From Amylostereum areolatum (taxonomy: Eukaryota > Basidiomycota > Agaricomycetes > Russulales > Stereaceae): a stretch of 64,000 bases of DNA. The notes under the pieces were generated by a model. It searched no databases. It saw nothing but the letters and a program-made list of their open reading frames with translations, and had not been told where the DNA came from. Where the stretch lies: positions 28,345 to 92,344 of the forward strand of contig SAXG01000116.1 of assembly GCA_012932865.1 (NCBI GenBank), written 5' to 3'. Positions 2,476-59,789 of the stretch are shown here, piece by piece (position 1 is the stretch's first letter; every line of letters starts with the position of its first letter). Position numbers and translations under genes: made by a program.

Positions 2476-2477
2476 CC

Positions 2478-31837: not shown

Positions 31838-32070
31838 ACCGTTAACGCGTCCGCGCGAGGAATCCGTTAACGCGTCCGCCCAAGAAACCCGTTAACGCCT
31901 CTGCGCGAGGAATCCGTTAACGCGTCCGCCCAAGAAACCCGTTAACGCGTCCGCAAGAAGCCCGTTAACGCCTCTGCGCGAGAAGTCTGTTCACGCCGCG
32001 CAAGAAATCCGTTAACGCGTTCCCCCAAGAAACCCGTTAACGCATTTGCGCGAGAAGTCTGTTCAAGCGG
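31838..32070. repeat. Left GTTAAC repeat array (ATCCGTTAACGCGTC orientation)
   Basis: About eight intact and two degenerate copies of a 26-30 bp unit built on (A/C)CCCGTTAACGC(G/C)TC(C/T)GC, with alternating GCGAGGAATC and CCAAGAAACC spacers. It lies between the F-box pseudogene and gypsy-2. The 15-bp core is the reverse complement of the core at 59371-59661. Confidence 0.9.
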
Positions 32071-32325
32071 ATAAGACAACAATCATCCAATATCCATAGG
32101 CCAGACCGCCGCGAGTTGACACTCACGTGAATCCGGTGTCTTCGAAAAGAGTCGTCCCTCATTGTCACCCCACCCTCCCACTGTGTACTTTTTGTTCCCC
32201 ATAATAATACATCCATTCTGTGAAGGCAATCCATTGAGCGCGCTACGCCAAACCCCCCTGTATACAGAGCCCATGGCATACCTTTGCGTGGTTGAGTGTG
32301 CCGTGCTCGCCGCCATGGAGCAGGG

Positions 32326-32744
32326 TGTCAGCAACGACTAGTGCGACAGCACCAAGTTACGACAAAGCTGACAGAGGAAGAGGACGACAGAGGGGAGCCG
32401 ATCAGACACGGCGACAGACAAGGGAAAGCAAGCAAAGTCGGTAGAATTGACTAGCTCGAGATAAGGAATATGTACAGCGAGAGCGAGCCTTATATACACA
32501 AGAGGAGAGAGACTTAGGTAAGCAACCAATACACGGCGATCAGTAAGCAGACCAAGTATAAGTAAGCAGTCGTATGTAAAAGAGCACAGCATGAGTCAGA
32601 ATGGTACAGCAGTCACGTGGGTCCGGGCGGGATATAGATGAGCCGGGTCCGGGCCAAGGTGGAGCCGGACCGGTGATAAGTCGATAAGTCCTAAAGCGTG
32701 TAACCGATGTAAAGTAAAAAGAAAATTATAGACCGTTCATGACA
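32326..32744 (-). repeat. gypsy-2 3' LTR
   Basis: 419 bp. It lacks 38 bp present in the other LTR. The pol stop codon lies a few bases inside it. Confidence 0.93.
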
Positions 32745-35700
32745 TCACCCCTTCCTTAGATTCGACGTCCTCGTCGTAATCAGATCCAGTTTCTTCCTCC
32801 GACAGGAGTTTCCAACGATTAAGGCGTGCAGGTTTCGGGGCACCCGGATGTTCACGGTGGAAGTCGTCAATGCGTTTCTTGGCATTCTGGAGATTGGTGA
32901 GAGGCTCCCAAGTATTGTCATTGTCTGGGTAGCCTTTCCATTTGACGAGGTACTTGAAGCCGCGACCAACCTTCTTGGAGTCTATAATCTTTTCGACCTC
33001 ATAGACTTCCTCTCCTTGGACTAACTCTGGCGGTGGAGGTGTAGGTGCTTTCTGATTGTCAAAGGCGGGACCGTTGTGTGGAGATAGGAGGGACTCGTTG
33101 AAGACCGGATGTTTTCGTGACCAGGATGTAGGGAGGCGAAGCTTGTAAGCCGATGCTCCGACTTTTTCCAGGATTTCGAAAGGACCAAAGCGCTTGTCAT
33201 CTAGCTTTTGCATAGGACGTGCCGTTTTGATTACGGTTTGGCCATCTCTGGTCTTGGCTTCCAGCCAGACAAAGTCGCCAATTTTGTAATCTATTGGTTC
33301 GTCCTTCTTGCGATCGTAAAAGCGCTTTTGATCGTCCTGTGCTGCCTTTAGCGCAGAGCGGGCTTCCTCATAGATGTCTCGCATGCGTTGTGCAAACTCG
33401 TTCGCCGATGGGTTGTCTGTCTCACGTCGAGGGTTTGTCCCCAGGTAGAGTTCCCGACCATAGTTGGCAAAGTTGGGAGACATCCCAATCGAACTATGGA
33501 CCATGTTGTTGAGTGCAGTCATGGCAAGTGGGAGGTAACGTGTCCAATTGTCCTGTCGTTGATTGACGAAGATGCGAAGGTAGTTTTCCATGGTCATGTT
33601 GGAGCGTTCGGTCTGTCCGTCCGTCTGAGGGTGATACGCCGTGGACGGGTTCCCTTCAATGCCTAACAGTTGGAACAATGCTGTGGTGAATTTGGAGACA
33701 AACACGCTGCCACGGTCGCTGACGATCTTTCTAGGAATTCCATGATGGGGGACCACCTCGCGTAGGTACTCGAAGGCGAGTTCGTCCTCCGTTAGGTCTT
33801 TTGTCGTGGCCCAGAATACAACCTGCTTGGTACCCATGCAGTTCACATTGCAGATGGCGTCTTTTCCATCCGAGACTGGGAGCGGCATGACAAAGTCGAT
33901 GGATACATGCTCCCAAGGCGCTTGTGGCGGGTCATGTGGGTGGAGTGGAGCGGCAATGCGATCATGTCTAATCTTGGTACGTTGGCAGGTCTCACATCCT
34001 TCAACATATTTCCGGACATCGTCTCTAATGGCAGGCCACCAGTAGTTGCGCGTGATGAGCTCATGGGTCTTGTATCGTCCTGGGTGACCGACAAGCGGGC
34101 CGTCATGATGAGCTTGGATGATGTCTGCACGGAGTCCTTTGTCTCTTGGGACATAGAGTCTGTGTTGCCAGGTGATCGTTCCATCTGCGTGTTCCAGCCA
34201 TCCCTTCACTTTGAGTGCTAAGGCGCGTTCTACTGCATGGTCTCGGAGTAAGGTAGCCTCCTGAATCCGCTCAATGAAGACATTGTCAGGTCCATTGGTT
34301 ATAATTCCTGCATGGTTGAGGGCGCGAAAGAGTTCTGGTTTCAGGAGGACAATGTTTTCATTGTCTTTCTCCCCCTTCTCAAGGCCCGCTAGTCGGGAAA
34401 TAGCATCGGGTTTACCCATTGTTTTGCCAGGCTTGTGGAGTAGCGTACAATGATACTCTTGTAGCTCCGTTAACCATCGTGCTTGTCTCCGATTTAGCTT
34501 CTGCGCCTTGCGGAAGTACGTGAGATTGCGATGATCCGACCAGATTTCAAACTCCTGTCGTGCCCCCATGAGGTATTGTCTCCATTCCTCTAGCGCCGTC
34601 ATGATAGCCAGTAATTCCTTGTCATAAATCTCATAGTTCCTCTCAGCTTCGCTGAGGGACTTTGAGAGGAAGGCGACCGGGTGCCATTTGCCATTGTCCT
34701 GTTGTTGCGAAAGTACCGCGCCCGTGGCATAATCAGAGGAGTCCGCCTCGACACGGAACTGTCCATCGTCTGTAGGGATTGCTAGAACTGGCTGCGATGT
34801 TATACGTCGCTTGAGTTCCTCAAAAGCCTCCTGCTGTGGGGTGTCCCAGACCCATTCCGTCTTCCCAGTGAGTTTAGTCATTGGGTGAGCAATGCCACTG
34901 AAGTCCTTGATAAAGCGACGGTAGAAGTTGCAAAAGCCCAAAAATGATTGAAGTTGTTTCTTCGTTTTGGGGGCTGGCCAATTGGTGATTGCCGCGACCT
35001 TTGCTGGATCCATGCGAACCCTTCCTCCGCCGACAATCATGCCCAGGTATTCGATTTCTGCCTTCTCAAACTCGCACTTTTCTGGCTTTAGATAGAGTTT
35101 GTTTTCTCGCAGGATCCGAAGGACCTCCTTGACTATCCGACGATGTTCTTCTAGCGTATGTGTGAAGATGAGGATGTCGTCCAGATAGACGACCACGACT
35201 CCTTGGTGGATCAAGTCTTTGAACAGGTCATTCATCATGGCTTGGAACGTAGACGGGGAGTTGGTGAGTCCAAAGAACATGACCGTAGGCTCGTAGAGAC
35301 CTTTGTTTGTGCGGAACGCAGCTTTCCATTCGTCCCCTTCTTTAATCCGAACATTGTTGTATCCCCATCGGACATCGAGCTTGGTGAAGTGCCGTGCTCC
35401 CTTAAGCTTGTCAACCAACTCTTGGATGAGCGGGAGCGGGTAACGGTTCTTTATTGTCATCTCATTGAGCTTTCGATAGTCCTGCACCGGACGTAGCGAG
35501 CCGTCTTTTTTCTTGATGAAGAAGAATGGGGAGGCCATGGGTGATTTGGACGGTTGGATCCGGCCAGATCTTAGGTTCTCTTCCAAAAAGGCGTCCAGTT
35601 GCTTCTGCTCGTCCAATGTGAGGGGGTAAACTTTGCAATCGACCGGTTTGAAGTTAGGAGTGAGCTCAATGGCGTGGTCCCATGGGCGTCGCTCAGGGAG

Positions 35701-36912
35701 CTTGTCGAAGTCGTCTTTGTCAAAGATGTCCTTGAATTCGTGGTACGCCGTTGGGACTCGCTCAGAGAAGGTCTGTTCCTTTTTCTTAGCGTGCTCTTCA
35801 ATTGCAATGTCCGATGCATGGGTCCGGATGTGGTATGTCGCTTTGTAGCCATCCCAGTCGAAAGCAAACAGCTGCTCGTCCTTTTCCATGTGGACTGGCT
35901 CTTCCTCCTCCTCTTCATCCTCATCGATATTGAGGAGGGGAGGGGGACGAGAGCAGCTGATAGGGCATCGGTCAAATTCAATTGACCCGGATTTCCAGTC
36001 GATGTGAGGGTTGTGCTTCTTTAGCCACTCATGTCCAATGAAAAGGTCCGTATCTCCTAGATTGGAGACCGCCAGGTCAATGTTTTCTTCATGGTCTTGA
36101 ATATTTAGGCGAAGTGTGACATATTCCGTAATGGGACCTCCTGTGTTGAGAGTGCCGTCTGCATTTCGTACTGGGATTGGGAGAGCAGTCCGTCGCGTGG
36201 GGATGTGATTTTCCTGCACAAACTTCGTGTTGATACACGAGCCAGTGCAACCACTGTCCAGGAGTGCGAGAGCTTTGACAATGCGTTTGGAATCTACCAC
36301 CAGTTGTGTGGGAATGACCGTTTGTTCCTTGGCGCTGGCGGAGCGTATGAACTGCATAGGAGTGGCGAGCTCTAGTAGAGCTTGACATGCTAACTCGTCT
36401 CCCATGCCAGTTATTTCCTTGATGGCTTCATAAGTAGCCTCGTCACGGCGTCGGTGGTGTGTCCAGATGCGAAGGATTGCAATTGCACTTTCGGGTTTGT
36501 CTTCCCTTAAGCGACGAAGCGTCCATTGAGCCGTTCCAGGTGCCATATAACATGATTTGGGCGCCGTGCCCCTTCCATCGCACGGCGTTGTCCCTGACTT
36601 CACAGGGTCCATATCCAAAACCGAGTCCGTATCCAAAGCCGTATCCAAAACTGAAGCCGAAACCGAAGCCATATCCAAAGCCGAAGGCTCACAAATCGAG
36701 GCCTGAGTATCTAAAATAACAACGGGACGCGTGCCCGTACCGATAGAGTCCGTAAGAGAAGTCATAATGGGGATATCCCCCGTAGTAGTACAGTCCGAAT
36801 CAACAATGCGCATATGTAAACGAGAACCAGGCCACCGAGGCGCCACAAAACCAGACGAGCGAGAAACAGAAACTTGGGCTTCAGATGCCGTGTACATCGT
36901 CAGCCCCCTCAA
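32737..36912 (-). CDS. pol: gypsy-2 Pol polyprotein
   Basis: About 1,391 residues entered by -1 frameshift from gag (no ATG at the start). Protease LALLDSGCTGS (about 216-226), reverse transcriptase VVYLDDILIF (YLDD rather than the YMDD of gypsy-1), RNase H EADSSDYATGA, integrase zinc domain ending CETCQRTK, the DDE core (SIDFVMPL, VSDRGSVF, HPQTDGQTERSN) and a C-terminal chromodomain (VEKIIDSKK...YLVKWKGYPDNDNTW). It has an extra N-terminal segment before the protease compared with gypsy-1. It ends GVMS* a few bases inside the 3' LTR. No break is seen. Confidence 0.95.
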   Translation of the reverse strand: MRGLTMYTASEAQVSVSRSSGFVAPRWPGSRLHMRIVDSDCTTTGDIPIMTSLTDSIGTGTRPVVILDTQASICEPSALDMASVSASVLDTALDTDSVLDMDPVKSGTTPCDGRGTAPKSCYMAPGTAQWTLRRLREDKPESAIAILRIWTHHRRRDEATYEAIKEITGMGDELACQALLELATPMQFIRSASAKEQTVIPTQLVVDSKRIVKALALLDSGCTGSCINTKFVQENHIPTRRTALPIPVRNADGTLNTGGPITEYVTLRLNIQDHEENIDLAVSNLGDTDLFIGHEWLKKHNPHIDWKSGSIEFDRCPISCSRPPPLLNIDEDEEEEEEPVHMEKDEQLFAFDWDGYKATYHIRTHASDIAIEEHAKKKEQTFSERVPTAYHEFKDIFDKDDFDKLPERRPWDHAIELTPNFKPVDCKVYPLTLDEQKQLDAFLEENLRSGRIQPSKSPMASPFFFIKKKDGSLRPVQDYRKLNEMTIKNRYPLPLIQELVDKLKGARHFTKLDVRWGYNNVRIKEGDEWKAAFRTNKGLYEPTVMFFGLTNSPSTFQAMMNDLFKDLIHQGVVVVYLDDILIFTHTLEEHRRIVKEVLRILRENKLYLKPEKCEFEKAEIEYLGMIVGGGRVRMDPAKVAAITNWPAPKTKKQLQSFLGFCNFYRRFIKDFSGIAHPMTKLTGKTEWVWDTPQQEAFEELKRRITSQPVLAIPTDDGQFRVEADSSDYATGAVLSQQQDNGKWHPVAFLSKSLSEAERNYEIYDKELLAIMTALEEWRQYLMGARQEFEIWSDHRNLTYFRKAQKLNRRQARWLTELQEYHCTLLHKPGKTMGKPDAISRLAGLEKGEKDNENIVLLKPELFRALNHAGIITNGPDNVFIERIQEATLLRDHAVERALALKVKGWLEHADGTITWQHRLYVPRDKGLRADIIQAHHDGPLVGHPGRYKTHELITRNYWWPAIRDDVRKYVEGCETCQRTKIRHDRIAAPLHPHDPPQAPWEHVSIDFVMPLPVSDGKDAICNVNCMGTKQVVFWATTKDLTEDELAFEYLREVVPHHGIPRKIVSDRGSVFVSKFTTALFQLLGIEGNPSTAYHPQTDGQTERSNMTMENYLRIFVNQRQDNWTRYLPLAMTALNNMVHSSIGMSPNFANYGRELYLGTNPRRETDNPSANEFAQRMRDIYEEARSALKAAQDDQKRFYDRKKDEPIDYKIGDFVWLEAKTRDGQTVIKTARPMQKLDDKRFGPFEILEKVGASAYKLRLPTSWSRKHPVFNESLLSPHNGPAFDNQKAPTPPPPELVQGEEVYEVEKIIDSKKVGRGFKYLVKWKGYPDNDNTWEPLTNLQNAKKRIDDFHREHPGAPKPARLNRWKLLSEEETGSDYDEDVESKEGVMS

Positions 36913-38003
36913 AAACCCTCCTTCTTCTCCTCCACCTTCGGCTGAGCTTGAAGCGCGTCCATCACGCTTTTCCGATCTTCGGCCGACAGGCTCCTAGCCC
37001 AGGCGGTGGGCGTCTCGAACGTCTGTGCTCGAGCCTCCCGCTTTGGTGGTTCCGTGTACCGGTCCCTCCCCCACATGTCTCGGATGTTCTTTACGTCCAC
37101 CCTGCAGTCCCGCACCTGGTGGCCATTCTGTCCGCAGCGGAAGCATCGCCCCTTGATGTCGACACGGTTGACGTCCATCGGCTGACCTTTGCCACCGTGC
37201 ACCGTGCCGGTTCCATCGCGGCGCCATGGGACCTGCCCCCCTTGTTGCCCATTGGACGATCCTTGTCCTTTGGGTTTTTGGTTCTGCACGGGTCCACTGC
37301 GCTGGGTCTTAAGGTCCTCCCGCTCCTGTCGCAGACCGTCGATCAGGATGATGCGCTCTTTGAGGTCCTCATATTTCTGAGGAACGTGACCGCTGTCGTA
37401 GATGGAGTCGATGGTCCGATAGTAGACGTTGTGTTTGAGCAGCTGCATGAGGTGGATAGGGTCCTGCGCCGTGGAGTATCCTGCCTTCCTTGCGAGTTGC
37501 TCGAACTTGGCGAAGTATTCATGGGCAGTGGTACCCTTCGTCTGTTTGAACCCGTCCAGTTCGACTGCGGCACGGTGCTGCTCATTGACGTCGGTGAAGG
37601 CCCCTTTGAGTGCTTTGTGGAAGTCCACCCAGGCGACCATGGCTCCATTGGCCAAGTGTGCATCCTCATACTCGGCCTTCCAGGTGCGTGCTGCCTCCCC
37701 CGTCATGTAGGTGAGAATGAAGAGGACTTTGTCCTTGTCCGTCACGAGGTCATCCTCAGCGGCTCGCATGTATTCCTCGCACGACCGCATCCAGTCATTG
37801 AAGTCCTCTCGTTTCCCAGAGAAGCCTTCAGGAGTTTTTGCGTGGACTTTCTTTCGGGGGGGTCTGGCGGCGGCGGCGGCTGGGGCACTAACAGTGACCG
37901 CAGGGGGGTTGACGGTGATGGGGGGGGGCCGTGACGTTGACGGTGGGGGGTGGCAGGTTGAGGGCAGCAACAAGCACGGCAGGGATGGCGACCCATTGGC
38001 CAT
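36909..38003 (-). CDS. gag: gypsy-2 Gag polyprotein
   Basis: 364 aa. Capsid-like region (FSGKREDFNDWMRSCEEYM, LTYMTGEAARTW, FAKFEQLARKAG) and one CCHC knuckle, CFRCGQNGHQVRDC. It ends GGT TTT TGA with pol in the -1 frame, as in gypsy-1. The start at 38003 is the first ATG in this frame, but the first 30 residues are Pro/Ser-rich. An upstream open frame in another register (38472-37888) appears to be its natural N-terminal extension, separated by one base in a nine-C run (37920-37928). Confidence 0.88.
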   Translation of the reverse strand: MANGSPSLPCLLLPSTCHPPPSTSRPPPITVNPPAVTVSAPAAAAARPPRKKVHAKTPEGFSGKREDFNDWMRSCEEYMRAAEDDLVTDKDKVLFILTYMTGEAARTWKAEYEDAHLANGAMVAWVDFHKALKGAFTDVNEQHRAAVELDGFKQTKGTTAHEYFAKFEQLARKAGYSTAQDPIHLMQLLKHNVYYRTIDSIYDSGHVPQKYEDLKERIILIDGLRQEREDLKTQRSGPVQNQKPKGQGSSNGQQGGQVPWRRDGTGTVHGGKGQPMDVNRVDIKGRCFRCGQNGHQVRDCRVDVKNIRDMWGRDRYTEPPKREARAQTFETPTAWARSLSAEDRKSVMDALQAQPKVEEKKEGF

Positions 38004-38472
38004 TTACTTCCATGAGCCAGGCATCGTCGGTGCCGTTATTCATGTGTTGGATGGGAGAGCCAGTTTGGCCGATGACAATGTTCCATGTTCCACCGATTTC
38101 GGTGCAGTTGGCGAGTTCGGCGGGGAGAGGGGGTTGGGGGTCGGTGCGGATCCACTGGGCAGCCATGATTGGTTCGTCGAGGTCGGAGAAGTCTTCGTCG
38201 GTGACAGGCGGTAGGGCGGAGGCGGCGATGAGGTTGAAGTCGGCTTCAGTGAGGTCGTCTTGGCTTTCGTTGGCGAAGTACCAACTGATGCCACTTGTTT
38301 GGGTTGCTACGAAGGCGACTTCGACAGTGGTGTCTCCGAGTTGGACAAAGAAGTCGTTTCCTCGTTCAGTGAAGCCTAGAGGGAGGGGATATATGTAGCA
38401 GTTTTCGTCCTCAACGTCGGTGTCGGAGTCAGAACTGGAGTCGGAGCCGTTGAGTCCGAACGAGGGAATTGT
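37888..38472 (-). other. gypsy-2 open stretch upstream of gag, out of register by one base
   Basis: Open from just after the TAA of the upstream ORF (38473) through an ATG at 38166 (MAAQWIRTDPQPPLP) to 37888. Acidic and aromatic segments (SDSDTDVEDENCYIYP, GISWYFANESQDD) look like real protein. It reaches the C run at 37920-37928, where a one-base change joins it to gag (...NVTAPP to PPITVNPPAVTVSAP). Either gag was once longer and this copy has a slip, or the run is slippery during transcription or translation. Confidence 0.45.
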
Positions 38473-38874
38473 TTATAAGTGGGTGAGGTCGATGACCTCT
38501 GGCTGGGTGAGGTCGATGACCTCTGGCTCTGGTGTGGGGCTGGGGGTGTTGCCTGGTGTAAGGAGGCGGTGGGTGTGTCGAGTGTCTACTGGTATTTTCT
38601 CGTTGGGCGCGTAGAAGGATTTTGGGGGTTGCTCGAGTTTGTAGCGGTAGGTGACGTATGGGCAGGAGTAGACGTAGAGGTTTCCGTTTCCTTGTTCGCT
38701 TATTTTGAGGCGATAGAAGTGGATGTCTATGATGGAGTCTTCAAGTTCTTCTACGCCGAGGGCGACCTTCCAATTGTGCCAGGCCCAAGGGTCTTTAGAT
38801 TCGTTGATGAGGGAGATGATAGCGTCGTGGCTGATGGGGATGAATTCTTGTACTTGCGAGCGCCAATCTTCCAT
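38473..38874 (-). CDS. gypsy-2 leader ORF (ORF0), 133 aa
   Basis: ATG at 38874, TAA at 38473; the frame is open further upstream without ATG. It begins MEDWRSQVQEFIPISHDAI, has a SKDPWAWHNWKVALG core and a (PEVIDLTQ)-type tandem near the end. I recognise no family. The position and a shared K-D-P-W motif match the ATG-less stretch before gag in gypsy-1, which suggests a common pre-gag ORF in these elements, but similarity is weak. Confidence 0.45.
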   Translation of the reverse strand: MEDWRSQVQEFIPISHDAIISLINESKDPWAWHNWKVALGVEELEDSIIDIHFYRLKISEQGNGNLYVYSCPYVTYRYKLEQPPKSFYAPNEKIPVDTRHTHRLLTPGNTPSPTPEPEVIDLTQPEVIDLTHL

Positions 38875-39333
38875 GCACGAGCCCCCAGTCGAAATGGTTA
38901 CTCTGTGCGGCAAGGGAAGATTTTGTCGAGGGAAGGTGGTTCTGTTATGAGATCGCAAGACGGTCTGCCTCAGTCTTCTCGACCTGTTGGCTGTCTCTTC
39001 GTCTAGGGGACACGAGCCCAAAGACTTCCTAAACCGCTTTCCTTTCGCCGCTTTTACTCGTTTCCTACACCAAAGGTGCACCTTCTACTGTCACCTCTGA
39101 GCTTTCAACTCCTGGTATTGGAGAGTCTCGAGTAGGTGTAACGTTTCGAGGAAACGTCAAGCCGGCACCGGTATACGTGCGCACGACCACAATGTCAGGG
39201 TAACGAGTCGCGTACTCTGGGGGCAACGGTCTAGGGCGGCACGGGGGAAGAACAAGGTCAGTACCAGACGGGTACTACTACTACTACGCTACAGTACGTA
39301 GGGACGGTCGTAGGGTGGTGCAAGAGTAAACAG

Positions 39334-39343
39334 ATCTCGAGCT
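39334..39343 (-). other. gypsy-2 primer-binding site, self-primer type
   Basis: AGCTCGAGAT on the minus strand, two bases after the 5' LTR. It is the reverse complement of ATCTCGAGCT at 39482-39473 inside the LTR, at the predicted transcript start. Same geometry as gypsy-1. Confidence 0.7.
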
Positions 39344-39345
39344 TA

Positions 39346-39802
39346 TGTCAGCAACGACTAGTGCGACAGCACCAAGTTACGACAAAGCTGACAGAGGAAG
39401 AGGACGACAGAGGGGAGCCGATCAGACACGGCGACAGACAAGGGAAAGCAAGCAAAGTCGGTAGAATTGACTAGCTCGAGATAAGGAATATGTACAGCGA
39501 GAGCGAGCCTTATATACACAAGAGGAGAGAGACTTAGGTAAGCAACCAATACACGGCGATCAGTAAGCAGACCAAGTATAAGTAAGCAGTCGTATGTAAA
39601 AGAGCACAGCATGAGTCAGTATCGTACAGCATGAGTCAAGAGAAAGGAGTCAGACCCGGACCGAGATGAGTCACGTGGGTCCGGGCGGGATATAGATGAG
39701 CCGGGTCCGGGCCAAGGTGGAGCCGGACCGGTGATAAGTCGATAAGTCCTAAAGCGTGTAACCGATGTAAAGTAAAAAGAAAATTATAGACCGTTCATGA
39801 CA
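39346..39802 (-). repeat. gypsy-2 5' LTR
   Basis: 457 bp with TG...CA ends. It contains the 38 bp absent from the 3' copy, next to ATGAGTCA direct repeats. Confidence 0.93.
39473..39516 (-). promoter_or_regulatory. gypsy-2 LTR TATA box and predicted transcript start
   Basis: TATATAAGG on the minus strand begins at 39516. The primer-complementary 10-mer starts at 39482, 34 nt downstream. Confidence 0.68.
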
Positions 39803-39911
39803 CAGGGGCCATGGTCTGGAGTCCAATCCAAACCGCGCGAAAGCCACACGCATCCATATGAATAATAATATTTCTAATGTCATACACCCAGCACCCACTC
39901 CCTGACCACCC

Positions 39912-42900: not shown

Positions 42901-43847
42901 CCTCGTCAGTGCATATCGTCGTCTCCCTTGGCGGTCTCAAACTGAGCAAGCAACGCATCTGGTCGTGCCCGGTGTACACCACCATGTTCAGCTTGTCCAA
43001 CTCCGTGCGCGTCCAAAATCCAGTATCTTTGTCCCACACCTCGATCCGATGAAATGGCATGCGACGGTGGTCATTCATCGTACACGTCCCACATGCAGGC
43101 TTGGAGAAAAAACACTCCACGCATCGATAGAGGGGCATGGCCTCGGTACCCTCGCTCTTCTTGCAGATGGAGCACACGCTCAGCGTTGGCCCCGCCTCTC
43201 GCGCCAGCAATGTGTCATGCGCCGGGCCCGCTTGAGTGCTCAGGAATTGATTCATGCGCTTGGACGGAGCCTGCCAACCAACCTAAGCATGTGCGCGCGT
43301 TCCACCATGGCCAAGCAAAACTCACTATTGTGTTGTTCACCCTTGCCCTCTTGGGTGCAGGCCCGTCCTTCCCCAACGCCTTATGCCGCGCCTGCGCCGC
43401 CGCGTCTTTCTCTGCTTCCGCTTCCGCCTTCGCCGCTTCTTTCGCTGCCGCCTTCGCCTCCCTCGCCGCAGCCGCCGCATCGTCCTTCGCGGAATGAGGA
43501 CCCGTGAAAGGGTTTGTGGTCCATCCTCCGCGCACCGATCCACCACCCGCCTTGACCTTATGCGGCGTGCTCCCCCGGCCCTGACGCAGCCCCCCCGACA
43601 TGGTCTGAACAGGGGCGTGTCCCTTGGGCGTGACGCAGCCCTCGAAGGACGGAGCTTTCAGAGGTTGAGTCGGCGTGATCCATATTCTCTCCGACCGAGA
43701 ATAAGTCGTCACAGGGGTCTGCGGGCCCCCCACCCTGGCCCGTCGAGGCGTCCCAGGCAGTCGCTGAGTGTTCAGCGCCACGGACCCGGCCGCAAAGACG
43801 CCGGGAGATCTTCCTGGCTTGACGGGAGACTTGTCGTTTGACGCCAT
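39912..43847 (-). pseudogene. KDZ (Kyakuja-Dileera-Zisupton) transposase, nine exons, one in-frame TAG
   Basis: Exons: 43847-43326, 43270-42653, 42598-42194, 42143-42007, 41950-41538, 41487-41281, 41231-41120, 41069-40041, 39990-39912. They total 3,522 nt (1,174 codons); all introns are GT-AG, 49-56 nt. A basic N-terminus is followed by a CxC2-type Cys cluster at about residues 205-305 (CSICKK, CFFSKPACGTC, CYCPQEG). The KDZ core has GGVDLQKGER, FVNVDFAL, FAYDIGCQY, GKFHLPGHKPGC, GEGQERIWA and HHGDMNW. The C-terminal coil is ARWTEEKALLEREMRRIM. The only defect is TAG at 41911-41913 (codon 574, between the two halves of the core), plausibly from CAG. KDZ proteins are RNase H-fold DNA transposases. 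Confidence 0.88.
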
Positions 43848-47614: not shown

Positions 47615-48218
47615 AACTTTGCATATTCCCCACGCGCACCTGTACGTAGATTACCTTGCTTATGTAATTTGTCGTAACCGACCACATCCGTCCAATCCCT
47701 CTCGCCCTGTTTTTTTCTTGGAATTATTGCAATTCTGTAGTCCGATCGCATTGTACATACGCCTCCACCGTTGAAATATACCTCGCCTTCTCCTCCCCCT
47801 GGCGTCGATCTCCGGATAACCCCCCGAACATCCGCCCAAGTGAGTCGATACCTGCCCTCCGTCCTTTTACGCCTCCCCAAGGTAAGCCGCTTCCGCGCCC
47901 ACTTTGCCCACGCCTTACTCACCCTCCCTGAATTTTTTGCCCCACACAGGAGACGATCAATCAAGCCAGAATTGGCGGAGCCCTGAGAGTCGACCACAGT
48001 GCACAGAACGTCTCGGCCACGCGGCTCGCGTACGTCTCCTGCCAGCTCCGCATCCCTCTCCTGACGAAATCCCTCCACCCACCGTATTCATTCGACCCTA
48101 AAATCCAGGGCCCCGGTTCGCAATCGTCGACACCGTCGTTTATGTTATTTACAAAATCTTCACGGCGCGACCCGCCCCGCCATGCTAGCTACAAAAATTG
48201 AGCGAAAGAATTCATGCG
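47615..48218. other. No gene recognised
   Basis: Short spacer between two same-strand genes. No consistent exon was found. It probably holds the terminator of one and the promoter of the next. Confidence 0.4.
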
Positions 48219-50447: not shown

Positions 50448-50928
50448 CGCGTGGTGAATGTTTTCCGTCGCCGTTCCGTCGCCAGCTGGTTGGGTCATAG
50501 GCACTGGGAGCTTTGTTTCTACGAGCGTGCCCGCGTAGGGGCTGGGTCTTACAGTACAAATTTCATGTCAGAGAGGAATGGCGAGCGTCGGAGCCGAACC
50601 GTATCAACGGGGCGAATTGTCTCACCCACCCCCCTGCCAACTCTTCGTCCATCAGAAAATACCATTGCATAGTTCGGGCGCGATGGCCCCTCAGGCTGGC
50701 GCCCTCCCACCACCCGTCCGTTGCTCCACCAACATTTCAACATCCTTCGCCAACGCCTCGGCGTCGATCTTCCTCGATCGCCCTCAACCTGGGCAACGCG
50801 CGACGCGGGTGGACCCTCCAGAGCTCTCCCAAAGCCCTTCGATATATTGCAAGTCGCCTCCACCACCCACATGCAGGGGTCCACTCTCAACCGCCGCCCA
50901 TAATTCCCTCCGTCGCCCCCCTCTCCCC

Positions 50929-52548
50929 ATGGCTAATTACACAAAGGAACTCAAGGCTGCTTGCGCTCTGGGTTCTGAAAGTCGAAAGCCACCCCCTCCC
51001 TCCTTGCCCTGTCCCGGGTGTCGCGGTGCTGTCAAGCTGCAGCTTGCTTACCGAAAAGGGATCGCAGGTCGCTGGCTCTCCATGGTGTGTATCACCCCCC
51101 CCCCCCCTCACCGTCTCCCTCTCTCACCCTCTACCCGCTAGTGTGACGAAAGTTCCCGTTGTGAAACCACCCGCCAGCCAGTGCAGCCAGACGTTCCCAA
51201 ATACCTCACTGAGGGCATAGAAGGCATCCGCTCCGTGACCAGCGCCGCGGAGCGGGTAAGGTTGTTGCGGAAGCTGAGAAACGAGGTTGGGGTGGCGGAG
51301 GGCAAGGTGAGCCGCTTCCATGACCTTTTTATGACCCGCTGCGAGCTCAGTCAGCCCCCACGCCGTCCCCAGCGAACAGTGTCGGCCACTTTCGCCTCTT
51401 CCTCACAGTCGATATACTTGTTGTCCGACTGCAAGCTCCCCGCCGCCCAGCTCGCCGATTGCCCATCCCTCACGGCGCACCTCGGCGACGCACATCAAGC
51501 TTGAGCCACCAAGCCCTCCCCAGAGACAGACGCCGGTGAGTGCGCTCTGCAGCAGAAGGTCTCGCAGGCTTTCTGAACTTCGGAAACAGGCGTGGGCGAT
51601 TCTCCCATCTCGCAAGGCCCGCCAGCCCAGACATGACAAGGCGCGGGCGCTCAGCATACGTCAAACGCAGTCCAGCCCAGGGCCCGAACTCGTCGTGAGC
51701 TCTATTTCACCTACCCACCCACCATTGAATATTGACTCGTCCATCGCAGCATGAGATCAGTGACTCTTCGGAAGATGAGCTTCCCAAAAAAATTCCCAAG
51801 CCTAACTTTGTGCGTCGTGTCTTTTCCAACCTCTCAAGCGGATGTTCTGACCTCTTCTCCCTGGATCAGTTCGTTGAAACCCACCGCGGGTATGCGAGCA
51901 CATCGGCTGGGGGTTCCTCACCCATCTCCATTGATGACGCAAGTGGTTTTTATTTACCCGATGTTCGATTTTTGACCCATCGGCCAACGCAGGACGAAGA
52001 ACAAGAAGAAGAACCCGTGAGTTTAACCAAGGACATACGCATCCGGATTTTCCACCATAACGGGGTGCGTCTGCCATTCCTCCACCTCCGCGGCGGTGCA
52101 GTTCTCATGCAATCTCCTTCAGATCCCAGGGCCTGCCCTCAAAGACTACGCCGTCGACGTTGACCGACCCTTGGTCCTCTCGCAACATTCCCGCATCATG
52201 AAGAGGTTCGAACTCTCTCTTGCCAGTCGCTGGCAGAAGTGGCTGCCGGGACGCTCGGAGTGGGGGTCTTTCATTGGTGTGGGCGATCGGGTTTGGTTGG
52301 AAGAAGAGGAGACCACGGTTGTTGGCCGTGTCGAGGGCTGCACCTATTGCCCTGACCTCTGGGAGGAGCTGAAACTCATGGCCTCCCCACCTCGTCTTTC
52401 TGCGGGCAAGGCACTGTATGAGAAGGGTAAAAAACGCGCGGCGCCGGAGGTGGACTTTGCCCTCACGAAGCCGCGGCCAAACCCCGTCACATTTAGTGCT
52501 GTAATTACGTCATGCGTGCTTAGCAGTACCTTCCCGATGGATGCGTGA
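50929..52548 (+). CDS. Uncharacterised protein with N-terminal zinc-ribbon-like motif
   Basis: Exon 1 is 50929-51084, intron 51085-51141, exon 2 is 51142-51306; the last exon begins at 52123. The intervening exons (including HEISDSSEDELPKK from about 51750) are clear in part, but 51307-51740 is unresolved. Exons 1-2 give CPGC(24)C(6)C around GIAGRWLSMCDESSRCETT, resembling GRF-type or related zinc ribbons. Acidic SDSSEDE and EEQEEE segments follow, then a folded C-terminal part (SRWQKWLPGRSEWGSFIGVG). Zinc ribbons of this kind bind nucleic acid in other proteins. Function here is unknown. Confidence 0.55.
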
Positions 52549-52656
52549 GCTTCAGCGCTTGAACGCAGGCGAGGCAACGTGTCATGTGACCGCGTTCAGA
52601 CGAGCCATGCCCAAGTCCTTGCCAGGAGCGCCTTGCGAGACCGCCACCCTCGACCG

Positions 52657-54689
52657 ATGACACCCCCAGTCCCTAAGCGCAAGGCTCAAGGCCACGCGCC
52701 TTCTTCCTCCTCCTCCTCCTCCTCTTCCAAAAAGCCTCGCTTAACCATTGACCATTTCTTCTCGCCGAAGGTCAGCGTTGCGCGCACGGCGGGCATAGAG
52801 GATATCGCGCGAGGTTTCAAGGCTGGGACGACAGAGGTGGTTCTCGGCGAGGAGCAGAGGAAAATATTGGCAATGGTGCTTCAGGAGGGAAAGAATGTAT
52901 TTTTCACCGGGTCTGCAGGCGCGTGGTCCTCCCTCACGCACCTCTGCTCGTGGCTAACCAGTCTGGATTTTCAGGGACGGGAAAGTCGTTACTTCTCAAG
53001 GCGATTGTCAATGCGCTGCGGCGGCGGCATTCCTCCCAACCCGAGGCCGTCGCGGTGACAGCGAGCACAGGGATGGCTGCATCGAACATAGGAGGTCAGT
53101 ATTCTCTCCTTGGGTCCAGCCGTCCCTCCTGAACACCCTTGCGCGCACAGGCATGACTCTGCACTCCTGGGGAGGCATAAGCCCGAGCGTGGACAGCCTC
53201 GACAAACTGGCTCGGTACGTCCGCCGATCGAAGCCGGCCTTGCAACGCTGGAGGGCGGTCAAGGTCCTGATTATAGACGAAGGTATTGCCCTCCGTCGAA
53301 CTACGCTGCGCACAACTGACCGCCGCGTCCTCAGTGTCCATGGTCGACGGACGCTTGTTCGACACCCTAGGCGCTTTAGCAGTGAGGCTGCGAGACCCCA
53401 GCCCAAAACCGTTTGGCGGTATTCAAGTAAGTCGTCCTGCACCTGTGCGACCCCACGCCGTTGTTCACCCACCGCGCTGCCCTCAGCTCATCGTCACGGG
53501 CGACTTCTTCCAGCTGCCTCCCATCACCCAAAAGGGTCAGGCCACGCTGTTCGCTTTTGAGAGCGACTCCTGGCGCAAGTCCGTGGAGGTGACTCTGGTT
53601 TTTGACGCAGGTGTATAGGCAAAAAGACGGCAGTAAGCCTACCCTCTTCTCCATCTTCGCTTCCTGCCCTAAGTCCCTCCCAACCAGAATTCGTTCAAAT
53701 GCTTCAAGAGCTCCGGCAAGGCGTTCTGACGCCTGCGACGATCCATGCCTTCCAACGACTCTCAAGACCTCTCCCCCCTTCCCCACTGGCGAACTTCCCG
53801 CCGACCGACCTCTTCCCTCTCCGGCGTGAGGTCGTCAGCGCCAACGCCTCTCGACTGTCCAAAATCGCCAAACCCATTGTGCGGTTTCGAGCTCAGGACT
53901 CCGGCACTGTCCCACCGGAGAAACGCGAGCAACTGTTGGACGCCACGCCTGCAGTCGGCGTCCTGGACCTCAAGACGGGGGCGCAGGTCATGCTGGTGCG
54001 CAATGTAGACGAGGGGAGGGGGCTGGTGAACGGGGCGGTCGGCGTGGTTCGAGGGTTTTACGCGGCACAAGGGGGTCGCTCTTTCGGCGTGTTAAGGGAG
54101 GTGGAGTTTGACGCAGACGGGCGGCCGACGGCGGCGGGCCAGGCAGGGGAGAGTGGCGACGAAGTGGTCGAGGAAAAGGAGAATTTCCCGTCTTCCAGCC
54201 CTGGCGACGGCTTGCGACTGGGAGACAGCGATGGGTTTCCCTGGGTGGAGTTCTCCACGCACGAAGGCAAAATTCGCGTCCTCGTCACTCAGGATGAGTT
54301 CAAGGTCGAGGACGCGGAGAGAAAGGTGATCGTGTGGCGACTTCAGGTGAGCATTCGACGACGTGGCTGGCCTTTGGGCAGTCGCTTACCAGTACCCCCA
54401 GATTCCTCTCATTCTGGCGTGGGCAATATCCATCCACAAGAGCCAAGGGCAAACTATCCAGCGCGTGCACGTCGACTTGCGCAAGGTGTTTGAGAAGGGT
54501 GAGGAAACCAAGCCTCGACAGGTGCAGCCCGCTAATGACGACTCCCATCCAGGTCAAAGTTACGTGGCCCTCTCTCGCGCGGCCTCGCTGGAAGGCCTGC
54601 AGGTAGTTGGGTTCGACGCCCGCAAGGTCCTCGCCCACCCGAAGGTCATCGCCTGGAGTAAAACACTCCAAACCAGTAAGCGATGGTAA
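52657..54689 (+). pseudogene. PIF1-like: PIF1-family DNA helicase with a one-base frame break
   Basis: Eight exons: 52657-52918, 52975-53094, 53151-53282, 53335-53426, 53487-53632, 53688-54346, 54402-54498, 54553-54689. Superfamily 1B motifs are complete: GSAG/TGKS (Walker A, split by an intron), [34 protein letters not shown] and [13 protein letters not shown]. The N-terminus is short and Ser/Lys-rich (KKPRLTIDHFFSPK). In exon 5 a run of five T (53599-53603) shifts the frame; the model is open at 547 aa only if that run counts as four. Intron 1 begins GC rather than GT. PIF1 helicases unwind DNA 5'-3' and act at forks, telomeres and G-quadruplexes. Confidence 0.88.
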
Positions 54690-54941
54690 GTCAGGTTATC
54701 CTTGCTTTGGCCTCCTGCTTACGATCGTCCTTAGCGGAGATGGGGGCCGAGCACCTACGAGGAGAACGCGCCCCTGCGCTGCCCCGACCACCACGCACTA
54801 TTCCCACCCGGAGCTTGTAACTAGCAATCAGTGACCCGAGTTCGCAAGGCACGAGATTGGTATTTACATGAGTGAGATCTTCCGGGCAAAGAGCGAGCAA
54901 AGAAGGTAATTAGGAACATTTGCAATTGAGTTAGGCTAATT

Positions 54942-56379
54942 CTAAGGTGGCGTCAAAGTAGCCAGATAGGCGGCTAAACTTTGCATACCGAAGACTTTGG
55001 AAGCATCAGGGTCATTGAGGTAACCCCTGACCTCGCTATTCCAATCCCCGCGCTCGGCGACCAATGCAGCGGCCTTTTCGCAATTGAGGAGCCAGCTCGC
55101 GCTCTTCCCTAGCAAGCCCTGCAGATGCTTTCTCAAGATGCGCTTGAGCCTGGCCGGGCGATCCACGCTGACGGGGACGCGCCACCCGGCTTTGCACTTC
55201 TCCAAAAGCCCCTCCACCTTCCAGATCCACTCACGAAGGACGTGAATGGGCTGCCCGCGCCGACTGGCGTCGGACCGGATCTGCTGCACCACTTCATCAT
55301 TGGCGTATTCCTCCATCAGCCAGGCAACGATCGCGTTCCCGGTCGGGGTTTCTTCTTCTTCCTCGGGCTCCGGGGTATCTGATGACGCACTCGGTGGCAG
55401 CTCCGGCTGGGGCTAGGGCAAAGGAAAGGTCAGTGGGCATTAAGTCACCCAGACAACGGCTCACCCTGTCCAGGTACAGATCGACCTCCCATGCGTCGCC
55501 AGAGGGATTCAAGTATGGTACGAGCAGGACTCCCTGCACCGCGTCGGAGTCGACGTCCTCGATGCGGGGCCGCGCCAAGAGTCGACACCTGAGGTTGTTC
55601 GCCGCGCGAAGCATGAAGCCGAGCTCCAGCGGACCTAAGGCGCGTTTAGAACAGTGCACAGCGGTCTGATTGGGGACCTTACCGTTGACAGATGGCTGGT
55701 ACTGGAGCCATGCGTCGACAACCTTCTTCGCGCTAACGGTGGGCAAGTTGGACAGTTTTTCAAACCGTAGGTCAAGATCTGGAGACGAGGCGGGGTATCG
55801 ATCGATGGTACTGATCCCGCCATCAAGCCCGTTGTGGACGATGATGTCAACGTCAGTGGGAAATGGTCGGGGCTCGAGGCTTTGGACAGGGTGAGCATGC
55901 TCCGCGTCACTGTGCGCGTCGGGAAGGTCCAGCATGCTGACATTTTCGCCAGGAGCAGCCATTGAATGCCGTCGGCGGCGGGAGGTCTGGAGGTGCGGCC
56001 TGGTTGGAGGAGCAGTTTGTCCCGCCAATGTCACCTTCGCCGCGCGGTGGCGCCTAAGCAGGGAACAGGAGGTCAGTCCTTTCCCTTCACCGCACACGGG
56101 GGGGGGGGGGGGGGGGGGGGCACGCGCCTGATCTCTGGAGGCAGGCAAGTCGAGGAAACCTTGGAGGTGAAGCGCGCGCAGCACCTCATCCACGCGCTTT
56201 TGATCGTCCGGGAGTGGTTCGTCGCCTGGCGGGTAAGACCCAGACTCGACATATCCCCAGTGCGCTGTAATCCGCGCGTTGGTCACCCGAGCCTTCGCGT
56301 TGGACAGGTCGCGAGGGGCTGACTGCAGCTTGCGGACGTTGTAGTGGGCGCGGAGTATTGCCTGAAGGCGCTGTATTGA
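54942..56379 (-). CDS. Uncharacterised protein; 5' end unresolved
   Basis: The last exon 55412-54942 joins an upstream one ending at 55465 through a 52-nt intron. A good ATG at 55961 (MAAPGENVSMLDLPDAHSD) gives about 320 residues. The same frame stays open further up, through a 23-base C run, to a convincing exon (AILRAHYNVRKLQSAPRDL, AHWGYVESGSYPPGDEPLP), so the true start is probably upstream of 56379. A C-terminal all-helical part (IHVLREWIWKVEGLLEKCK) follows a Glu-rich linker. No known domain. It is convergent with the PIF1 gene. Confidence 0.55.
56098..56120. repeat. 23-base G homopolymer
   Basis: An uninterrupted G run on the plus strand. On the coding strand of the gene above it is C23, coding seven Pro or lying in or beside an intron. 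It is likely length-variable and hard to sequence. Confidence 0.85.
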
Positions 56380-56874
56380 GCATGGCTAAGGTGTGGAAGT
56401 GCGGGCTCGTACCGAGAGGGAGTTAACGGGTATTTTTTTGCTTAACGCATGTCTGTAAGTGACGATTCGATTTTGGCAGCGGGTATGACTCACAGATCCT
56501 CCCTAGTTAACAGAGTTAGCATGTTGGAGGAGGAGGGGGAGGAGGGGGGGGGGGCTGGCAGACTTGACAGGCGATGGGGAGGGGTGAGGGTGTCCTAAAC
56601 CCAAGCTTACAACTTTGTTCGCCCCTCGACCACGTGATAAGATTGTGTATTTGCTGCTTAGAAGGTGTGCTTGCGAACCCACAGCTTTGAAGGATGATCT
56701 CTCCCTTTAAAGATGAGTACGGAGGCTGGAATGGATAGCTTTTCTGGTGAGTTTGGGGTCGGGGAGCATGCGAAAAGACTAACTAATCCGTTAACAGATC
56801 AATGAGGGGGTGGGGCGCGTTAAGGACTTGCGCGCCTTTCCGCGCGCGTCCGCGTAAGCCGAGCCACCACCGTC

Positions 56875-57709
56875 ATGGTACAGACCTGGTCCTCCTCAAC
56901 TCATTTAAGTGGCCAGATGGTGCCCGCCGCCTCTGGAGCTGCCTCCCAGTCTCTCCCTCTGGCCTACGTGCTCCTAGAGCTGCCGACTAAGGTGAGCCTT
57001 GCCCCGGTCAGGGTACAAAGATTTTCCCACCAGTTTATCACAGGGCAGCGTGCGCGTCGTCCCAAACTTACCTCGCATGCGACCCAATTTCTGGACAGGA
57101 AAAGTTGGCGTTGAGATGAGGGCGCTTTACTACCGGCTGTTGGGGAACGGAGTTACGGACTGCTACGAGGCGGAGTGGGCGCGCGCTGTGAAGATGATAT
57201 TTGGCGTGTGCGCTGCTCAAGGGTTCCGGGTGCGTCGTCTGGAATTCCAGAGGCCTTAGATTCTGACCCTGAAACCACAGACCTATCGAGACCTACCACG
57301 GGCACCACTGCCATGGTTCTTAGTCAACTGGCAGCGGCGCCGATGCGTGCTCTCCCCCCTGCGGGACCTCAACAGCCCCAGCGACGGCTTCCAAGCCCTC
57401 TTTGAAGGGTATTATGCATCACAACAACCGGCCGACCGATCGCCTCTCCCCTGCGACTCCGCGTTCATGGTGCGACCATTGAAGTCCTTCGACTGGTCGC
57501 GAATGTTCAGGTTTGACCGCTCCTGCCTTGTATGTAACCTGGTCCTCCTTTATTACTGGGCGGAGGCGATGACGAATCGGCATTGGACAGAGAGGTACCA
57601 TGACTGGGAAGGGTGGAGGAAGGGGGTCCTGGACCTTATAGAGGTGGCGAGCGTGCTGCAGGGGCTGGGAATATCGGAGGTTCGAGGGCGTGTTGTAAGG
57701 GAAGAGTAG
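56875..57709 (+). CDS. Uncharacterised 243-aa protein
   Basis: Exons 56875-56991, 57044-57229, 57281-57709, introns 52 and 51 nt, exactly 244 codons. Hydrophobic and aromatic throughout (LPLAYVLLELPTK, TYRDLPRAPLPWFLVNWQ, SFDWSRMFRFDRSCLVCNLVLLYYWAEAM), ending in RYHDWEGWRKGVLDLIEVA. Looks like a compact all-helical protein without a signal peptide. Family not recognised. A GTTAAC copy (56792) lies in its upstream region. Confidence 0.65.
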
Positions 57710-57841
57710 CGCTGTGAAGCAACCGATGTATGCAATACGAGCGACTTCGAGGTGGTCGAACTTCCAAGCGGTCGAACTTCATGAAGCCAGGTAGATTTGT
57801 CCAATTCAACAACCAGAGCGTACGTGAGGATAACAGCGCGT

Positions 57842-58649
57842 CTACTCCGACCACCCTTCCTCTCCGCCCTCCAACCTCGGCTTCCTGGCCGCACTACCTT
57901 CCCCATCCCCACCTCGCCCATTCTCACCCGAGCTCCCGTCGTCGCCCGGTGTTGTCCTCTTTTTGCCACGCGGCGACACGGCTGGAAGCCCGAGCGGAGG
58001 CAGGCGATCCATGCCCTGCCAAAGGTTAGCTTGCCCTTCGGATCGGAACGCACCCAGTTGCTCACCTCCTCATCCTTGGCAAGGTCAGGCCTGTATCCTT
58101 AGACTTCAGTCCCCAATCTCCCCCACCGCGAAGTGAAGCGCCACTTACCTGGTGGCGTCCACAGGGCGCCTGGCAATCTCCGCCTCCAACTCCATCTCCC
58201 GAGCGCAAGCGGCCTCGAGGTGCAGCTCGGCCTGCGACAAGTGCTGGAGGGTTTTTCCCAGGTCCGCACGCAACAACTGGGCGTCCAGTTCCAGACAGGC
58301 GGACGTCCTTCCTCAGGGCGACCGCGTCCCGCTGATGGTCGTCCGACTGGCGCGCCATGGCCTCCTTCTCTTGACGCGCGACTTTCCAGCCGGCGTTCGC
58401 CTCCGTTCGCTGGCGGACGAGCTCGTTGACCTCGACCTGGTGCTTCGCGAGGACGTGGTTGAGCTCGTCGCGCAAGGCAGTGACCTCGTCTACAGCGTTG
58501 TCCCGGGCTTCAAGCGCGGCCCGCTCGCGCACCTCTGCGGCCTGGTGGTCGTTGGCGCGGCCGAGGATGTTCCTCTGCGCCTTCTCCAAGTCGTACTGGA
58601 GGCCGCGAATCTCCTTGAAGAGGTGGATCTCGCGGTCGGGTGGTGACAT
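57842..58649 (-). CDS. Coiled-coil protein, about 232 aa, possible one-base break
   Basis: Exons 58649-58149, 58090-58066, 58015-57842; introns 58 and 50 nt (the second has a GCTAACC branch). Starts MSPPDREIHLFKEIRGLQYD, then a continuous heptad-rich coil (LEKAQRNILGRANDHQAAEV ... LRDELNHVLAKHQVEVNEL). The tail is Gly/Lys-rich (PRGKKRTTPGDDGSSGENG). Near 58294-58297 one extra base breaks the coil frame (KDVRL to LELDAQLLRADLGKT). Alternatively a 61-nt intron with a weak GTCCGC donor removes it. It may be a structural or oligomerisation factor; function unknown. Confidence 0.6.
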
Positions 58650-58875
58650 ATTCTTGAGGAGGATGAGGAGGAGAGGGAGAGAGGGGTACGCCCGGGGAAG
58701 GAGGCCCGACGTTCCGCGGGGAGTCGACCCCAGGCTTCGGGCCGCGCTTCCGCTCCGCTCCTCGCTCGTACGGGACCGACGCGGCTGGTGCATGGGTCTC
58801 CATTGGCATATAAAACCCCAATTGGAGGCGAGTCTGCCCATCCTCATTCATCACCATCACCGGTCACCCCTAAAT
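58650..58875. promoter_or_regulatory. Divergent promoter with CCAAT and TATA boxes
   Basis: Short spacer between two divergently transcribed genes. Reading right, CATATAAAACCCCAATTGG places TATAAAA at about 58807, some 65 bp before the ATG at 58876. TGGCGTG-type and CCAAT motifs flank it. Confidence 0.5.
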
Positions 58876-59208
58876 ATGCCGAAAGACCCCATTGTCGCAG
58901 GTGAGGTTCGTCAGGGAGAAGTGACGACGCGCCTCAAACCTGGGTAAGTCGTCCCGTGTTCCTGGACTGACTGTCGACTGACATCGCCAACAGGGACAGA
59001 GGGCGCCAGCCCTGCGCGTTCGTGGTGCACACCCGGCGGTACCAGGTGTTCTCACCTAGCCTGCAACTCCCTGCCCCAGTGCAGATGTTTGATGGAGAGT
59101 CTGTTGAGAGGGTCTGGTATCTGCTGAATCAGGGTGAGTGCACTTACTTCGTGCACGACTTTCTACTGACTTCGAGAGGTAGGGGTAGAGAGGAAGTCTA
59201 GATTGTGA
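58876..59208 (+). CDS. Small uncharacterised protein (about 78 aa)
   Basis: ATG 58876 (MPKDPIVAGEVRQGEVTTRL). The first intron is GTAAGT...GCCAACAG (about 58945-58993). Then DRGRQPCAFVVHTRRYQVFSP, and a second likely intron (GTGAGTGC...TCGAGAG, with a CTGAC branch) leads to a short end (VGVERKSRL). If the second intron is not used the frame ends at the TAG near 59199. The compact beta-like pattern has no recognised family. TATA and CCAAT boxes upstream support a real gene. Confidence 0.5.
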
Positions 59209-59370
59209 GATGGGCAAATACAGTTGCACGGCTGTAATGTAGGGGGAAAAAATTCCAAATGAATATGTGTTTTGCGCCCAAGTTCGAACAAGGTGGTGTG
59301 TGAAACCGCGTCAACCTGGTGCGCAGGTGGGATGCTAGATGCGCGCGTTGCCGCATTGAAGTGAGAGAAT

Positions 59371-59661
59371 ACGTTAATGGGTCCCTCTGGGAAGCGTTAA
59401 CGCCCCCGGGTAGCTCGTTAACGCGTTCTCTCACTAGGATGCGTTAACGGTCGCGCACCGAGACGCGTTAACGGACGGTTAACGGACGCGCTACGAGACA
59501 GGTTAACGGCCCTTACACCGAGACACGTTAACGGATCTCGCTGTGCCCGCCGGCTACTCCAGGCCCTGGCACCGAGACGCGTTAACGGATCTCGCCCCAA
59601 GACGCGTTAACGGATCTCAGGACCAGATCCGTTAACGGATCGCGGGCGAGATTCGGTTAAG
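59371..59661. repeat. Right GTTAAC repeat array (GACGCGTTAACGGAT orientation)
   Basis: About ten GTTAACG copies plus two degenerate ones, typically GAGACGCGTTAACGGATCTCGC with 20-40 bp spacing. Opposite orientation to the left array at 31838-32070. Confidence 0.9.
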
Positions 59662-59789
59662 GCCCGAGATTTCTGACAGTGGCCTCGGATCGACGGAGGC
59701 AATCACGTGACACAAGGGCACGTGCTGGTTCGGGTAATGGCATTGATCAGGCCGCGCGCGTCTTTCTGCCTTCACACGCAGCTCCCTCT

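Follow-up and report, generated by a model that had tools for sequence, protein, structure and literature searches.

The 64,000-nucleotide stretch of Amylostereum areolatum DNA analysed here (hereafter the window; contig C20:28345-92344 in our labels) contains one copy of an element that we interpret, with a probability of about 0.85, as a giant cut-and-paste DNA transposon of the KDZ superfamily, some 30 kb long when intact and carrying cargo genes for which we propose roles in its movement. An original prediction, made from the letters of the window, had described a single mobile unit of about 20 kb that combines a KDZ transposase with further genes, PIF1 among them, and is bounded by two inverted GTTAAC arrays. 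The single mobile unit is borne out: there are 13 copies, their left edges coincide, their termini are inverted, and both 7-bp duplications and empty sites mark their insertion. The comparison of copies within the same genome that had been suggested as a check yielded common edges, terminal inverted repeats and a target duplication. Its proposed limits had to be redrawn: the unit starts at 29031 and continues beyond position 64000, where the contig stops, and its intact length is about 30 kb rather than 20 kb. The genome searched comprises 57.1 Mb in 182 contigs; genome-wide searches score the best candidates only, and counts derived from them are lower bounds. Copies are named after their contigs, with two copies each on C2 (C2a/C2b) and C142 (C142a/C142b).

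The edges of the element emerge from the comparison of these copies. The left-array region occurs at a minimum of 13 loci including the window (16 match rows) and the right-array region at 10 or more (27 match rows), and copy-to-copy similarity extends past the outer ends of both array queries. On the left, a query covering window 24001-31600 (31 rows) places the start of 12 other copies at 29025-29031; the right edge lies outside the assembly, as matches to a 59700-64000 query (69 rows) reach the contig end, window 64000. The termini read GAGTAGCATCAGTTG on the left and GAACATCTAC on the right, with terminal bases GAG..TAC, and window 29039-29104 is found inverted at 13 far ends. The intact length is that of C2a (30,237 bp), which does not contain the nested long terminal repeat (LTR) retrotransposon of the window copy, an insertion not present in other copies. 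Exact spans of longer copies are 31,102 (C142a), 36,590 (C141), 36,778 (C76), 36,917 (C2b), 37,725 (C142b) and 48,240 bp (C120), and those of shorter ones 23,413 (C127), 19,265 (C150), 15,862 (C48) and 15,823 bp (C99).

Sites of insertion could be examined from both sides. Exact 7-bp duplications flank five of the 11 copies with both ends read (C48, C150, C2b, C76 and C142b). When 13 left flanks are paired with 13 right flanks, 15 of the 169 pairings are identical at 7/7 bases, for an expectation of about 0.01, and this all-pair matching defines eight distinct target sites for which both flanks are available; three of them join different copies (C141 left/C120 right, C127 left/C141 right and C2a left/C30 right). 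We searched for empty sites by joining each of the eight flank pairs at a single target sequence and scoring the best 40 of 87 candidates: seven of the eight sites have an uninterrupted counterpart across the junction in the element's own genome, and only for CGCATGC was none present among the scored candidates. The C150 site is found empty at C124 (580 bp at 99.0% plus 580 bp at 100%) and the C127-left/C141-right site at C181 (580 bp at 98.8% plus 601 bp at 99.2%); we infer that these two are alleles of a second nucleus. The remaining five empty sites sit in repeats, at 88-99% identity, and the counterparts of the C2b site (C13, C56 and C132, at 99%) lie inside Pif1-type helicase genes. The three cross-copy pairs have empty sites at 99%, 90% and 88%. 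In the window, the left flank matches C154 at 82-88%, ending precisely where the element starts. We also observed that flanks and 7-bp duplications are permuted among C48, C99, C127, C141, C120, C2, C30, C142 and C121.

The transposase itself places the element in the superfamily. The KDZ transposase domain PF18758 is recognised in the C2a model with an E value of 3.2e-35 (122 bits, cut-off 26.6), and a CxC2 cysteine cluster precedes the transposase core (PF18803, 5.1e-14 in the C2a model; Table 1 for the window). Twelve of 13 copies have no stop in the matched KDZ part, the stop of the window copy resulting from a CAG to TAG change. The C2a model contains the motifs VDGNYQ, AYDIGCQ and GEGQERIW, which are candidates for the acidic catalytic triad. 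The seven nearest database KDZ proteins belong to Artomyces pyxidatus (37-38%), Gelatoporia (35%), Heterobasidion (40%), Hermanssonia (42% over a third) and Armillaria (23%); together with that of the GIPVW homolog described below, these genera point to a probable Russulales host. As had been noticed at the outset (about 0.4 kb), the gene ends close to the left array, some 0.36 kb away once the nested retrotransposon is discounted. The target duplication is exactly 7 bp, within the 7-8 bp of the KDZ superfamily, and by the features tested the element is a giant multi-gene member of this superfamily, whose founding paper is said to be Iyer et al. 2014.

The PIF1 helicase announced inside the interval was recovered as well (Table 1), and its gene may also include a piece further upstream, from 51082. 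Its nearest chains in the PDB are named PIF1 (8xak, 8.2e-100; 5o6b, 9.3e-100) and presumably represent the yeast enzyme; the Helitron protein Helraiser is distant (1.7e-14). The N-terminal region carries KKPRLTIDHFFSPK in the element, KRPRLTIDSFFSPK at locus C176 and KQPRLTLDAFFSPK at C126, so that an FF motif, which we take to resemble a PCNA-interacting box, is kept in three diverged Pif1 genes; the intron in the Walker A loop stands, by eye, at the same place in all three. The C126 gene (C126:164477-166492) is 49-79% identical to the element Pif1, and C126 gave no match in genome searches for the array, GIPVW, h6 or terminus; it may be a cellular gene related to the element helicase. Judged from its sequence, the element Pif1 is of the cellular type and not of the Helitron type.

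The other cargo genes are listed in Table 1. Gene models were produced by a simple purpose-written gene finder, run on the element alone, and compared with the C2a copy; it placed a false intron in GIPVW and skipped the Walker A exon of Pif1, which was read by eye against C176. We regard the models of KDZ, GIPVW, Pif1 and the F-box-like gene as firm, those of g4, h6 and h9 as fair, and those of h7, h8 and h10 as weak. The F-box-like gene is a single 663-amino-acid (aa) frame in C2a; in the window copy a frame change divides it in two (frames 29636-30850 and 30693-31796). For GIPVW, a single-sequence search found one homolog, in Amylostereum chailletii (47% identity over 76%), while an alignment search returned no relative at 1e-5, fewer than the single-sequence search, and the spread of this protein in other fungi is thus poorly sampled. 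Comparison with the PDB gave no relative at E up to 1, and the predicted structure, from three sequences, has a mean predicted local distance difference test score (pLDDT) of 32. A further GIPVW relative was seen at C150:1237078-1256007 (61-72% identity), with no KDZ match listed nearby. None of the 27 TET/JBP matches of the genome falls in an element copy. That the genes at 45-59 kb are syntenic, single-copy host genes, a possibility raised with the original prediction, is ruled out: in their own genome they are multicopy inside the element.

Table 1. Features of the giant KDZ element and its surroundings (window coordinates)
Feature	Position	Strand	Remarks
Left copy of 7-bp target CCATGCG	29024..29030	.	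right partner outside assembly; C154 flank match ends exactly at 29030
Giant KDZ element	29031..64000	.	left end exact; right end ~2.4-3 kb past contig end
Left terminus	29031..29104	+	imperfect inverted repeat, ~67 bp, starting 8 bp inside end
F-box-like gene	29636..31577	-	PF12937, E 1.6e-8 (C2a frame)
Left GTTAAC array	31838..32070	-	25-bp period; 261 bp upstream of F-box start
Nested LTR retrotransposon	32326..39802	-	flanked by CAGGG duplication; in other copies 32325 abuts 39803
KDZ transposase gene with CxC2 cysteine cluster	39912..43939	-	PF18803, 3.1e-20; one in-frame TAG in window copy
GIPVW protein	45242..47614	+	one open frame, 790 aa, without known domain
g4, unknown protein	48342..50447	+	~547 aa; model only; C176 match E 3.6e-13
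Pif1 helicase	52549..54689	+	PF05970, 9.1e-40; PF21530, 1.5e-10; N-terminal RLTIDHFF motif; Walker A split by intron
h6, unknown protein	54990..56376	-	~440 aa; frame match C20:83334-84720
h7, possible coiled-coil protein	57553..58649	-	weak model
h8, short	58876..59208	+	weak model, score 2
Right GTTAAC array	59371..59661	+	463 bp upstream of h9 start
h9, unknown protein	60124..61025	+	264 aa in C2a; model; pN/pS 0.33 over 10 copies
Third motif cluster	61253..61323	+	three degenerate motif copies; same in C2a at 24176-24245
h10, no domain found	62438..63175	+	weak model

Left of the element, window 2195-8800 holds a high-scoring five-exon reading of 2112 aa that is probably a retrotransposon polyprotein.

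An indication that the cargo belongs with the transposase comes from the diverged locus C176, where protein identities with the element are 28-63%. This locus carries KDZ (86.9-90.2 kb), GIPVW in two pieces (67.0-76.8 kb) separated by a pair of 457-bp direct repeats, g4 (65.9-66.6 kb), Pif1 (57.0-61.8 kb) and an F-box gene (54.7-56.7 kb); read from KDZ, the order and strands of KDZ-GIPVW-g4-Pif1 are the same as in the window. The F-box gene stands elsewhere than in the window, with two weaker F-box-like matches nearby, and h6 to h10 have no match at C176. A candidate KDZ-side end at C176:92208 matches the element right terminus at 21 of 27 bases, a score equalled in 1 of 100 shuffles of 52 kb, and is only suggestive; terminus searches did not find the far end of the locus. 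Degenerate GC-rich tandem repeats occur at both loci on the KDZ-distal side, at 27.0-28.9 kb in C2a (its right 3 kb) and at C176:52.6-53.2 kb.

The GTTAAC arrays remain a conspicuous property of the element, in a position other than the one first proposed. GTTAAC occurs 27 times in the window, compared with 7.6 (standard deviation 2.8) in shuffles, none of 100 reaching 27; eight of these fall within 31841-32041 and ten within 59396-59636. The 15-mer ATCCGTTAACGCGTC, at up to 3 mismatches, is present 24 times (expectation 1.5), its copies in one array lying mostly on the strand opposite to those in the other, in agreement with the inverted pair of some 8-10 copies each originally noted. Tandem Repeats Finder resolves the left array into 8.4 copies of a 25-bp unit and the right one into shorter runs of 12-35 bp. 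In the same genome, a 16-bp form of the motif has at least 83 matches at 1 mismatch (reversed control: 0), which form eight opposite-strand array pairs 20-38 kb apart and seven single-array loci, all copies of this element. With the exception of a lone one-mismatch match at C172:103280, this motif search gives no sign of the genome-wide dispersed satellite unrelated to KDZ copies that the original prediction had named as a possible refutation.

Two functions can be considered for the arrays. Subterminal repeats are bound by the transposase in some plant and animal elements, and a role of the arrays not as promoters but as binding sites of the transposase complex, the latter much as first suggested, would suit the inverted orientation of the two arrays in eight copies (motif search) and a motif that appears family-specific and fast-changing. 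Such a role nevertheless seems rather unlikely, because the arrays are 2.8 kb (left) and 7.3 kb (right) from the element ends, each just upstream of an outward-facing gene, with the same motif orientation relative to the gene at F-box and h9. The third motif cluster at 61253 also speaks against it, as do two loci: the 40 kb examined at C176 contain a single GTTAAC and no array, and C150 has no right-array match, yet shows an exact duplication and a near-identical empty site, array loss after insertion being possible there. We therefore lean, by a modest preference, towards arrays that serve as protein-binding sites regulating the outward-facing genes.

The history of the copies is legible in their differences. 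Mean identity is 98.8% among 13 left ends (1,169 columns). Measured against the majority base, 96 changes have occurred there, C>T and G>A accounting for 86 of them; 78 of these 86 fall in CpG. The per-site change rate in CpG is 10-22 times that of other contexts, and 57 of 70 such sites changed in a single copy; this fits a recent burst followed by decay through CpG methylation. In a compact KDZ family from this genome (2 kb, seven copies, five of them about 3 kb from a TET match below the cut-off), C>T or G>A make up 77 of 100 changes, 64 of the 77 in CpG; set against those of the giant copies, these proportions give no sign that TET-bearing KDZ copies are shielded from CpG decay. The genome as a whole (C14, C164, C128, C158, C9 and other contigs) holds at least 155 KDZ match rows and at least 27 TET/JBP matches, several of the latter about 2-3 kb from KDZ.

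These observations can be assembled into a proposed mechanism. The KDZ transposase would cut at the two termini and insert with a 7-bp stagger. Pif1, presumably acquired from a cellular-type Pif1 with its PCNA-box-like motif kept, would aid the copying or repair of long DNA around transposition, with GIPVW and g4 as putative partner proteins in the reaction. The F-box protein may counter host silencing, and the arrays would bind proteins that regulate the outward-facing genes. Alternatively, a compact KDZ transposon could have trapped host genes once, by chance, before amplification, making the extra genes passive passengers. Weak selection among copies would agree with this, as would the exact duplications of C48 and C150, deleted copies without Pif1, and an element Pif1 that looks derived from a cellular gene. 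We consider it improbable: the same four genes recur in order and orientation at C176, GIPVW has a homolog in another fungus, and a module is favoured over trapped host DNA because the KDZ-GIPVW-g4-Pif1 order is kept at a diverged locus. It is far less credible that the copies are segmental duplications or assembly chimeras that never transposed. Permuted flanks, some of them common to two or three copies, could be read in this way, as could the gap-rich differences (153 mismatches and 98 gap openings over 22,996 columns), such as a noisy assembly might produce. Against it stand exact 7-bp duplications in flanks that are unrelated to one another, and the fact that seven of eight targets, the three cross-copy pairs among them, also exist uninterrupted.

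Several points weigh against the interpretation as a giant transposon with a working cargo. In six of the 11 copies the two flanks of the copy itself do not share a duplication, and copies have swapped ends with one another, through recombination between them or chimeric assembly. A right flank is common to C48, C99 and C127 and a left flank to C99, C142a and C142b; with ends exchanged and flanks shared, independent insertions are therefore fewer than copies. No Pif1 match is present in C48, C99, C127 or C150, and in several copies stops or frame changes disrupt GIPVW. Conservation of the gene module rests on one diverged locus, C176, without its far end. Finally, purifying selection among copies looks weak or is not visible for several genes: the ratio of nonsynonymous to synonymous polymorphism (pN/pS) is 0.53 for F-box (12 copies), 0.72 for h7 (10) and 0.33 for h9 (10), and between the window copy and C2a, with few changes, 0.72 for KDZ, 1.12 for GIPVW, 0.87 for the g4 model and 0.38 for the Pif1 model.

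A 30-kb KDZ element with several additional genes, clean 7-bp duplications and near-identical empty sites shows that moving giant elements is within the reach of a cut-and-paste transposase in these fungi; the role of an element-borne Pif1 in moving long DNA becomes testable, and GIPVW offers a protein handle for finding such elements in other genomes. More tentatively, and at somewhat less than even odds, we suggest that mushroom-forming fungi harbour a lineage of giant DDE-type transposons not described so far, whose conserved mobilisation module would consist of KDZ, GIPVW, g4 and a PCNA-docking Pif1, with GIPVW as a new family of transposition-complex proteins.

Among known systems, the closest comparisons are with other KDZ elements. 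No giant multi-gene KDZ element was found in the open literature searched, a provisional result since preprints and most subscription papers lay outside the search; in the accessible parts of that literature, KDZ elements that have been sized measure about 9-11 kb, a third of the present length, and one of about 11 kb is described as large (PMC12510652, in part). According to the available portion of PMC12730594, Kyakuja makes 7-bp duplications and Dileera and Zisupton 8-bp ones. The same portion describes Kyakuja-1_LB and -2_LB of Laccaria, which resemble our element in their KDZ transposase and 7-bp duplications and differ in that they end in 5'-CA..TG-3', lack terminal inverted repeats and carry a TET/JBP gene, where our element has GAG..TAC and inverted repeats of about 67 bp. 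Because these reported Kyakuja termini are not found here, we refrain from assigning the element, placed by its features and not by a transposase tree, to Kyakuja. KDZ1-3 of Cryptococcus neoformans share with it recent mobility, terminal inverted repeats and a KDZ transposase that has a cysteine cluster, and they make duplications of 4-8 bp; as far as the accessible text of PMC12810828 goes, they are about 9.2-11 kb long with inverted repeats of 139-241 bp and CxC1, in contrast to the CxC2, the length of about 30 kb and the several additional genes found here. CxC2 also precedes intact KDZ genes of Pleurotus (PMC7641404, accessible part). Within the same genome, the compact TET-bearing elements (C14, C164 and C128) have the KDZ domain in common and, in the one family examined, the same CpG decay, and are distinguished by a TET/JBP match about 2-3 kb from KDZ, with no Pif1 or GIPVW match nearby. 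Helitrons likewise encode a Pif1-family helicase, of the Helitron type, and make no target duplication, unlike the 7-bp duplications and cellular-type Pif1 reported here. Starships, as portrayed in the available part of a Tremella report (PMC13066641), are alike as giant multi-gene mobile units of fungi and are driven by a tyrosine recombinase, for which the 20 frames and 10 models scanned, part of the element's frames, gave no Pfam match; our element is multicopy, with inverted repeats and a DDE-type KDZ transposase. If the lineage proposed above is real, it would be a basidiomycete counterpart to Starships, whose own replication-repair helper lets 30 kb and more move by cut and paste.

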